Part shown: positions 22,639 to 25,300 of the stretch, in pieces
Position numbering within the stretch: the first letter of the stretch is position 1
Layout of the letters: each line of letters opens with the position of its first letter
Source: Calothrix sp. NIES-4105
Lineage (GTDB): Bacteria; Cyanobacteriota; Cyanobacteriia; Cyanobacteriales; Nostocaceae
Length of the DNA stretch: 64,000 nt
Assembly (NCBI RefSeq): GCF_002368415.1
Contig: NZ_AP018290.1
Span: forward strand, 3,671,614-3,735,613
Direction: 5' to 3'
Translations under genes and position numbers: made by a program
The notes under the pieces: generated by a model
The model's database searches: none
What the model was told of the DNA's origin: nothing
Seen by the model: only the letters and a program-made list of their open reading frames with translations

Positions 22639-22791
22639 ATGAGACAAACATCAGCACAGATTCTATTACGCACCGCCCTGCGATTTTACAAAATCCGTCA
22701 CCTCGAACTAGAGACGGTTAAGCACCTAATGGCTCTGTCCGAGGCAGAATTTGAGCGCGAGTACGTTGAAAGAATCAGACAAGCAGCTTAA
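22639..22791 (+). CDS. 50-aa protein convergent with recombinase copy 2
   Basis: Paralogue of 20757-20909 (MRQTSAQILLRTALRFYKIR, HLELETVKHLMALSEAEFE). Differences are mostly conservative (I to V, K to R, D to E), a pattern of selection on protein. It overlaps the recombinase 3' end by 17 bases on the opposite strand. Preceded by a hairpin at 22561-22584. Candidate recombination directionality factor; no homologue is known to me. Confidence 0.7.
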   Translation: MRQTSAQILLRTALRFYKIRHLELETVKHLMALSEAEFEREYVERIRQAA

Positions 22792-24139
22792 TTTCTGTGA
22801 TTTCTCCATCTAGTACCGTGACAGTATCAACTAAGTCGCGGTATACCTGCCTCTTGTCTGACCACGGTAATGCTTCCCAGTATTTTGAGTCACTGAAACA
22901 ATGCATTAAAATACCTTGCATCTCAGTACTAACTTGACTTGCAACGGCATTTTTCTGTTTAATTGCTTGAATTTCTAGTAGTGTTTGGTCAATTGCTTGC
23001 TGGATTACAGCGTTTTTGGGCATTGCTCGAAGTGTTTTAAGTTGCTCGTAGGGTTCTACTAATTCAGGCGCCACCTTCTCGAACATATCAATATGTTCAA
23101 TGGTGTAAGCTTTAATTTCTTTGCACTTAGCAATTAAAGCATTATCAACAGCTGTCATGATGGTTGGCAGACAGATACCGTCTTTATTGGAGCAAAAATG
23201 TTTACCAATAGCGTCACGTCTACGGCAGCGCGCGCGGTAGTTTCCCCATTTGCCACGAGCTTTCCTAACGTAGAATTTAGAACCACAGGCGCCGCAAATA
23301 ACCTGTCCCATAAGTGGTTGAAGCTCTTTATTTTTGGCGCCGTAGCTGTAAGCGTGCCTATTTTCTTGTATCTTGTCTTGGATTATTTTGACTTCTGATT
23401 GTGATACTAAGGCGGGATGAGTATTGTAGTGAATTTGCGTTGGTTCGTTTGGGCTATTAACAAGAAAATAAGCGGTGTGCCCTTGCAGTGCTGGACTAAG
23501 TAACCAAATCTTTAGCCCAGTATTTGACCAATCAACGCCGTACTTTTCCTTAAAATAAGTAACTGTACCCCTAAGCGAGCCTTTCCCATCTGTAAAATAA
23601 TCAACAATTTCTCGCGCAATCTCCCAGTAAGTTTTACCGGATTCGTGCAAGGTTGTATTAGGGGCGTACTTCTCGTCAACTCTCCGATACCCAAATGGTG
23701 TTCGTCCCGGCGCCTTTTTTTGCTCCCTAAAATACTCCATCCCATGTTTAACGCGATTTGACAGCAGCCTAGACTCAAACTCAGCTAAACCAGCCATTTG
23801 GTTAATCGAAAACCACCCGAAAGGGCTAGAAGCGTCATCTATTGGAGCATCTAAAACGGTCAATTTCACGCCATATTCGTCTAGTAATACTATTGTTTTA
23901 TGAATGGTTATTACGCTCCTAGCTAATCGGTCAATGCGAGTAATAATGATTTCTGAGATTTTGCGCTCCTTGCACATCTCAAGCATTTTATTAAATTGCT
24001 TGCGCTTATCTGACCGCCCAGACTCAATATCTGTGAAGATAACCGAGGCGCCTGCTTTCTCTACACGGGCAGTTTGCTGTTCCAATGCGTCCGTTTCTGA
24101 CTGTTCTCGCGTTGAAACCCTGATGTATCCTACTATCAT
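22775..24139 (-). CDS. Large serine recombinase, XisF-like, next to interrupted coxA
   Basis: 454 residues. The catalytic domain begins MIVGYIRVSTREQSETDAL with the nucleophile S9 and includes IIITRIDRLARSV; a recombinase domain follows (APGRTPFGYRR), then a zinc ribbon with CGACGSKFYVRKARGKW and RCRR...C, and a coiled C-terminus (VIQQAIDQTLLEIQAIKQ). Length and domain order match the large serine recombinases such as XisF, which removes the fdxN element in heterocysts. It is transcribed away from coxA, whose broken end begins about 40 bases beyond its start codon. This placement at an element edge is the rule for interruption elements. The frame is intact. Confidence 0.9.
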   Translation of the reverse strand: MIVGYIRVSTREQSETDALEQQTARVEKAGASVIFTDIESGRSDKRKQFNKMLEMCKERKISEIIITRIDRLARSVITIHKTIVLLDEYGVKLTVLDAPIDDASSPFGWFSINQMAGLAEFESRLLSNRVKHGMEYFREQKKAPGRTPFGYRRVDEKYAPNTTLHESGKTYWEIAREIVDYFTDGKGSLRGTVTYFKEKYGVDWSNTGLKIWLLSPALQGHTAYFLVNSPNEPTQIHYNTHPALVSQSEVKIIQDKIQENRHAYSYGAKNKELQPLMGQVICGACGSKFYVRKARGKWGNYRARCRRRDAIGKHFCSNKDGICLPTIMTAVDNALIAKCKEIKAYTIEHIDMFEKVAPELVEPYEQLKTLRAMPKNAVIQQAIDQTLLEIQAIKQKNAVASQVSTEMQGILMHCFSDSKYWEALPWSDKRQVYRDLVDTVTVLDGEITEIKLLV

Positions 24140-24175
24140 GACGTTTTATTGTTTTGTTTCCACTATGATAATGTC

Positions 24176-25300
24176 TCTTCGGTAAACTTTGTTGTCACCA
24201 TATTAAAGATGAAAGTCCCCAGTATGCGTTGGGATCAACTACCTTTATTCTGCTGGGCAATTTTAGCAACCTCAGTTTTAGCGTTAGTATCTACTCCTGT
24301 ATTAGCAGCAGGGTTAGTTTTATTACTGTTTGATATCAACTTTGGCACATCGTTTTTTAAACCAGATGCAGGTGGTAACGTCGTTTTATACCAACATTTA
24401 TTTTGGTTCTACTCGCACCCAGCAGTATATCTAATGATTCTGCCTGTGTTTGGTATCATGTCCGAAGTGATTCCTGTACATTCACGCAAACATATCTTTG
24501 GTTATAAAGCAATTGCTTACTCTAGCTTGGCAATTTGCTTAGTAGGTTTATTCGTTTGGGTTCACCACATGTTTACCAGTGGTACCCCAGGTTGGATGCG
24601 GATGTTCTTTACTATTTCGACTCTGTTAGTTGCTGTACCCACTGGTGTGAAAATATTTGGTTGGGTTGCAACACTTTGGCAGGGTAAAATTCGCTATACC
24701 AGCGCAATGCTATTCGCCATTGGCTTACTCTCAATGTTTGTATTAGGTGGTATTGGTGGTGTTATGCTTGGTACCACTCCCTTCGACATTCACGTTCACG
24801 ACTCATACTATATAGTTGCTCACTTCCACTACGTACTGTTCGGTGGTTCAGTATTTGGTATTTACTCAGGTATTTACCACTGGTTCCCCAAAATGACCGG
24901 ACGAATGCTGAATGAAACTTGGGGACGAGTTCACTTTGCCATTACATTTGTTGGCACTCACCTCACCTTCTTCCCTATGCATGAGTTGGGACTACAAGGA
25001 ATGCCACGTCGCGTTGCCATGTACGACCCACAATTTACAGCTATCAACCAGCTTTGCACTTTTGGCGCCTTTTTATTAGCTTTTTCTGTAATACCTTTTA
25101 CTTACAACGTCATTAAAAGTTGGAGAGAAGGCGAAGTCGCAGGTGATAACCCTTGGAATGCGCTCACCCTCGAATGGACAACTGCTTCACCTCCAGCAAT
25201 TGAAAACTGGGAAGAATTACCCGTTGTCACCGTAGGTCCCTATGAATACGGCGTGACCGACAACCATCGCGCGGATGGACTCGCAGATATTAGCGCTTAA
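24176..25300 (+). pseudogene. coxA: 3' two thirds of cytochrome c oxidase subunit I gene (interrupted coxA)
   Basis: About 374 codons matching COX1 from SVNFVVTILKMKVPSM onward. Present: the copper-site histidine-tyrosine segment WFYSHPAVYLMILP, the histidine pair in WVHHMFTSG, and the haem ligands in VHDSYYIVAHFHYVLFGG. Missing: the first ~190 residues with helices I-IV and the first haem-a ligand. No start codon with a ribosome site precedes it. The gap to the recombinase start is about 40 bases. In vegetative DNA this would be the 3' exon of a coxA gene carrying an interruption element, restored by excision; it could also simply be broken. Confidence 0.88.

Follow-up and report, generated by a model that had tools for sequence, protein, structure and literature searches.

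A coxA gene that lacks its 5′ end and abuts a serine recombinase gene pointing away from it raises the question of whether the gene is simply broken or is one half of a gene interrupted by an element that is removed during development. This arrangement was found in a window of 64,000 nucleotides (G000:C1:3671614-3735613) from the genome of Calothrix sp. NIES-4105 (G000; 12.0 Mb in 8 contigs). The initial annotation described coxA as lacking its first ~190 codons, with an intact XisF-like serine recombinase starting about 40 bases from the remainder, and proposed that these mark one edge of an interruption element, which would be longer than 24 kb if its other edge lay to the left of the window.

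Two parts of one coxA gene

The features around the right edge were as follows.

1..24177, no strand: right three quarters of the 32,164-bp element
22775..24139, minus strand: intact XisF-family large serine recombinase of 454 amino acids, pointing away from coxA into the element
24178..25300, plus strand: coxA2 3′ part, codons 189 onward, starting at the TTC core, with a complete C terminus and a PF00115 match
25330..26004, plus strand: coxC (subunit III), the next gene of the operon, given as the open frame listed, with the true start probably inside it

The 3′ part was found to lack 188 codons, placing the break at codon 188/189, and the recombinase starts 38 bp from the right element edge on the minus strand, both in close agreement with the annotation. 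A search of the genome with the COX1 family gave seven matches. The window coxA covers family positions 134-436, and a partner match 8 kb to the left covers positions 2-138 in the same direction; two further full-length strong matches and a third, weaker one were also present. The partner is the missing 5′ part, located behind coxB at genome 3663064-3663629, 7.99 kb left of the window start. Both edges of the element are on a single contig of 11.06 Mb, correctly ordered and oriented, and the element measures 32,164 bp from TTC to TTC, so that the left edge and the size were as anticipated. A single gene is present as two collinear parts split by a chromosomal element, and neither of the sequence outcomes that would speak against an interruption (a 5′ part found nowhere, or one lying beside unrelated DNA without a shared repeat) was seen.

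The left flank carries, in order, a gene resembling PatB/CnfR, fdxB (nif-specific ferredoxin III), coxB and the coxA 5′ part, while the right flank carries the coxA 3′ part and then coxC. The gene beyond fdxB codes for a protein that is 4Fe-4S at its N terminus and HTH at its C terminus, the layout of PatB/CnfR, and we take it to be of this type, no model having given the PatB name. A neighborhood of fdxB and a patB/cnfR-type gene is presumably the mark of cox2 in PCC 7120, and the coxBAC order found here lies beside genes of these kinds. The genes alr2514-2516 are coxB2, coxA2 and coxC2 (PMC4390870), and work cited in PMC4874684 found the expression of coxA2 and coxA3 to be specific to heterocysts in Nostoc 7120. 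By synteny, the interrupted operon is probably the heterocyst-type cox2.

That coxA belongs among the interrupted genes, as the annotation had stated, is borne out by the survey of Hilton, Meeks and Zehr (2016; PMC4874684). Of the 38 genomes that it covers, 28 contain elements, 101 in total; three of these elements interrupt coxA, in three variants, and its Figure 1 is a coxA3 element of Calothrix PCC 7103. This survey was the one source found on coxA elements, the titles and abstract openings of the other papers listed on such elements naming none. The coxA2 and coxA3 elements that it describes share with the present element a split coxA, a recombinase inside at one edge, a short direct repeat and tens of kilobases of generally nonconserved cargo.

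Edges of the element and predicted junctions

The sequences of the two edges are ...ATCAATTTTGGG TTC AGTCATCTTATC... on the left and ...TATGATAATGTCTC TTC GGTAAACTTTG... on the right, and the relevant features were as follows.

24178..24180, no strand: right copy of the TTC direct repeat, with the proposed crossover dinucleotide TC at 24179-24180
Genome 3663627-3663629: left copy of TTC, outside the window
24158..24175, plus strand: right arm of the inverted repeat formed by the element ends (TTCCACTATGATAATGTC), the arm that pairs with it being at the element's left end, beyond the window

A direct repeat had been predicted between 24139 and 24182. One was present where the two gene parts overlap, but it was very short, consisting of TTC as an exact repeat or TTCrGT with one mismatch. 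A 3-bp repeat by itself proves nothing, and the evidence beyond chance comes from the rejoined sequence, which matches same-genus genomes, and from a dyad centered on the repeat.

When the halves were joined at TTC, one open frame of 561 codons resulted, with the predicted joint ...CATCAATTTTGGGTTCGGTAAACTTTG... In the alignment to uninterrupted coxA genes, the 27 bases at this joint were identical in four of the five intact same-genus genomes and matched at 26 of 27 positions in the fifth; removal of the element restores an intact ortholog in frame. The base following TTC is G at the right edge, as in coxA, and A at the left edge, where it belongs to the element, and hence a crossover at TC would restore the sequence of the relatives.

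Large serine recombinase sites consist of arms around a central dinucleotide. The predicted circle junction, ...TGATAATGTCTCTTCAGTCATCTTATCA..., has the anatomy expected from this arrangement: the joined element ends form an inverted repeat centered on TC in which 18 of 25 positions pair. Other centers scanned gave at most 11, and none of 20,000 arm shuffles reached 18. The dyad locates the crossover without recourse to the coxA comparison. No dyad was found at the core on the coxA side (attB), and no second copy of the right arm was present in the window at up to 3 mismatches.

These observations bear on whether the two parts could be a coxA pseudogene pair created by rearrangement or mis-assembly without site-specific recombination. 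Such an origin would fit an exact repeat of only 3 bp, but it is extremely improbable given that the 11.06-Mb contig holds both edges in the order and orientation expected, that joining them yields the base sequence seen in relatives and that the circle-junction dyad is centered on that joint.

The edge recombinase and its relatives

The XisF-like character assigned to the recombinase held up, the protein scoring 516 bits against a cut-off of 375 with the NCBIfam XisF model NF041201 (model positions 1-464 of 465) and having resolvase, recombinase and zinc-ribbon domains. Its location inside the element, near an edge and opposite in direction to the gene, matches the known pattern for interruption elements, for which a recombinase opposite in direction to the gene indicates a position near the element end (PMC4874684).

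Relatives were sought in overlapping sets of 145 genomes of the family, 7 of the genus and 388 of the order, the order set at E 1e-100. The nearest recombinases outside G000 were 52-59% identical, none being closer than 59% among the matches listed, and a query against the named genomes gave no relative. At the edges of the nearest relatives were nifH fragments broken at KADS|TRLML in Nostocaceae genomes, these target labels being readings of element edges. In a tree of 43 rows, the window recombinase paired with a decayed copy of itself with support of 100/100.

20896..22518, minus strand: decayed second recombinase copy, in three matching pieces, 76-82% identical

Together these two were sister to 16 recombinases with support of 94/91, just under the level starred by the tool. 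Fourteen of the 16 are located at nifH KADS|TRLML, the other two, L096 and L097, carrying no target label, and the next three rows outward were also associated with nifH. The simplest reading of this sequence comparison is that a recombinase of the nifH type took coxA2 as its target, and the tree suggests that these recombinases may move among heterocyst genes rather than being fixed to one target. The nifH KADS|TRLML elements, which hold the closest recombinases found outside G000, differ from the coxA2 element in target gene and attachment arms, and no cargo gene match was found in the stretches compared. When the coxA2 and nifH attachment sites were compared by eye, their similarity was not convincing.

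The decayed copy lies directly behind the intact gene, has stops within two of its three pieces and has no match to the first 19 residues; it has no recognizable edge and may be left over from an element that was present earlier or in tandem. Related elements look as if they had been inserted in both orientations. At nifH KADS|TRLML, the recombinases of L091, L095 and L101 are at the opposite edge from those of L088-L090 and L092-L094. Similarly, for splits of coxA3 near codon 95, the recombinases of L106-L109 are at the opposite element edge from those of L014 and L103-L105 at the same gene position. The coxA3 site in L104 is CACTAGTG, a palindrome, which could allow both insertion orientations.

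The coxA2 site in related genomes

Among the six other genomes in the genus, five (G030, G115, G127, G138 and G101) contain an intact coxA2 with 96-98% protein identity, while in the sixth (G076) the gene is split elsewhere, near codon 102. Among the matches listed for the 145 family genomes, 125 genomes had a match spanning codon 188, a count that may miss extra copies; the remaining 20, G000 included, were inspected in full. A split at codon 188 was found in G000 only, among the matches listed. Ten genomes (G076, G095, G019, G012, G083, G049, G097, G032, G130 and G140) have coxA2 split near codon 102. Additional or sole splits near codons 304-321 were detected in G130, G140, G045 and G118, and G140 is also split near codons 395-403. 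Breaks at codons 102, 188, 304-321 and 395-403 indicate that coxA2 has been split repeatedly and at different places. The gene is in four pieces in G140 (L160, L161) and in three in G130 (L159), which suggests two or three elements within one gene.

No piece broken at codon 188 was present among the matches listed for G024, G117, G082, G099 and G126. In G007, a coxA2 5′ piece is cut off by a contig end at residue 189-190, and a 3′ piece with residue 211 as its first lies at another contig end; this genome is a possible further case of a codon-188 split. In G114, a coxA2-like 3′ piece begins around residue 210-216, and the matches listed include no 5′ piece; the 3′ piece is joined to unrelated sequence (L162, G114:C1:1896500-1899500), with no recombinase gene read beside it, and was left out of the codon-188 count as perhaps a truncated coxA2 copy.

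Calothrix sp. PCC 7103 (G115) has an intact coxA2 and a coxA3 that breaks near codon 250. The position at codon 188/189 differs both from this site and from the ten family coxA2 splits near codon 102. It is apparently new for coxA2, and could equal one of the three coxA variants in PMC4874684.

A second split coxA and other probable elements in the genome

A coxA3-type paralogue in G000 is also split, near codon ~95; the element there (C1:3073435-3128175) measures about 54.7 kb. Its pieces were located as follows.

3072.1-3073.4 kb, minus strand: coxA3 3′ part
3128.2-3128.5 kb, minus strand: coxA3 5′ part

The edge repeat is TCACT, and the edge recombinase is 51% identical to that of the window and passes the XisF model. 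In the circle-junction test, 15 of 25 positions paired around CT within TCACT, a score reached by 14 of 20,000 shuffles. Intact coxA3 orthologs with 95-96% identity were present in three genomes of the genus (G076, G101 and G030).

Other serine recombinases of the genome (25-45% identical to that of the window) lie against pieces of nifH (in two places), nifK and nifJ, these names having been read from translations and the far edge traced for one nifH element. The nifH gene appears to be split twice (C1:3837200-3850731, L156): the 5′ part ends at CGGFA beside an XisF-like gene with XisH and XisI, and the later part runs into another related serine recombinase near the C terminus. At C1:3744282-3746291 (L151), a recombinase abuts an apparent nifK C-terminal piece, and at 1533775-1536408 (L158) one abuts an apparent 393-amino-acid nifJ N-terminal piece; both are probable interruption elements. 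Given the elements in coxA2, coxA3 and the nif genes, gating appears to extend in this strain to both oxidases of the heterocyst type and to some of the nitrogenase system.

Excision could instead be triggered by another cell type or by stress, or could occur constitutively at a low level. Elements have been reported in genes without a known nitrogen fixation role and in nonheterocystous strains (PMC4874684), and a simple scan of 24000-24400 detected no developmental promoter signal for the recombinase, the single promoter-like site lying on the opposite strand and being no better than chance. We consider a trigger of this kind very unlikely, as the target is by synteny the heterocyst-type cox2 operon and as the other serine recombinases of G000 are located at pieces of nifH, nifK, nifJ and coxA3.

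Cargo genes and XisH/XisI

The cargo includes an IS481-like transposase, an AAA ATPase, MACPF and RTX-repeat proteins, thioredoxin/DsbD-type genes, ECF sigma and anti-sigma factors and a response regulator, so that the transposon, MACPF, RTX and sigma genes of the window all lie within the element as foreseen. Window positions 1761-4941, in which a resolvase-like gene with a frame break (1761-2319) is followed by the IS481-like transposase and the AAA ATPase, are a transposon nested in the coxA2 element.

The fdxN element has a short direct repeat. The fdxN element of Nostoc PCC 7120 resembles the coxA2 element in this feature and in having an XisF-family large serine recombinase above the curated cut-off, but it interrupts another gene and its excision requires both XisH and XisI (PMC4874684), whereas none of the 27 XisH and 36 XisI matches of the genome lie inside the coxA2 element. 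The coxA3 element likewise contained none of these 27 and 36 matches, and a nifH element of the same genome holds one of each. The matches are spread over the chromosome, which makes roles beyond element excision probable. Either the recombinases of the coxA elements do not need XisH and XisI or they use them in trans.

A tblastn comparison set the cargo open reading frames against 11 stretches of 2 to 12 kb that follow related recombinase genes downstream, some of them truncated at contig ends, and against six stretches of the same genome from other elements or the nif region. No common directionality factor was detected in these stretches; the matches obtained were to recombinase sequences only and within G000 only.

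Selection on the two halves of coxA2

Relative to five same-genus relatives, dN/dS ranged from 0.034 to 0.091 in the 5′ half and from 0.032 to 0.055 in the 3′ half. For a more distant sixth relative (L063), the 5′ half was saturated at synonymous sites and the 3′ half gave 0.046. Where the five relatives agree, codon changes specific to G000 comprised 27 synonymous and 0 nonsynonymous changes; the same filter applied to the relatives gave 0 nonsynonymous changes in three and 3 and 8 in the other two. Both halves show purifying selection. The ratio of 27:0 and the low dN/dS values argue for a functioning coxA2 product, although part of this history may predate the insertion, as close relatives do not have this element.

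A recent phage-, plasmid- or ICE-like insertion that is not excised in heterocysts, leaving coxA2 dead and other oxidases to substitute, must be weighed against these data. The restriction of the element to G000 among the matches listed, the other COX1 matches in the genome (two full-length and strong, a third weaker) and the decayed recombinase pieces would all be compatible with a dead gene, and a recent insertion would not yet be visible in dN/dS. On the other hand, the filter applied left only synonymous changes on the G000 branch in both halves, and neither the recombinase gene nor the two edge arms have decayed. The same genome contains another coxA paralogue whose interruption has the same anatomy at its edges, as well as truncated nif pieces that lie directly against serine recombinase genes. 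Furthermore, the duplicate within the element has decayed to 76-82% identity, so that the element is unlikely to be very new in this lineage. We regard a dead coxA2 as unlikely and conclude from the sequence, with high confidence, that coxA2 is interrupted by a heterocyst-type element with its own XisF-family recombinase.

Proposed mechanism and significance

In vegetative cells, coxA2 would be in two pieces and hence oxidase subunit I could not be made whole. In a developing heterocyst, the XisF-family recombinase would pair both edges at the TC of TTC, the 32,164-bp element would leave as a circle and coxA2 would be rejoined in frame with its original sequence, making expression of coxBAC2 possible. 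Directionality help, if needed, would come from outside the element, as no XisH or XisI match lies inside. We infer excision, the crossover base, heterocyst timing and this outside help; restoration in heterocysts only is suggested by the cox2-type synteny together with the reported behavior of such elements. Developmentally timed excision that restores a split gene is also described for SPbeta in spsM (PMC4191935) and skin in sigK (PMC5025042), which belong to another bacterial group and act in the spore rather than the heterocyst; this likeness is one of excision behavior.

The element is of a known kind, to which this case contributes an apparently new coxA2 position, a nifH-related recombinase, the lack of XisH/XisI matches and a second split coxA. 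A broader proposal, which we put forward tentatively and which may well not hold, is that an XisF of the nifH lineage was retargeted to a fresh coxA2 site with developmental gating and that, with the independently split coxA3, both oxidases as well as nifH, nifK and nifJ are under excision control; directionality factors, if any, would be shared in trans, as neither coxA element carries XisH/XisI.

The analysis predicts to the base how a respiratory gene would be rejoined on excision, and it names the dinucleotide at which crossover would occur. As the coxA elements have no XisH/XisI match and the nifH element has both, the question of XisF direction could be tested in one strain. For this organism, the findings would mean that several unlinked serine recombinase elements in one genome have to be removed to produce a working heterocyst.
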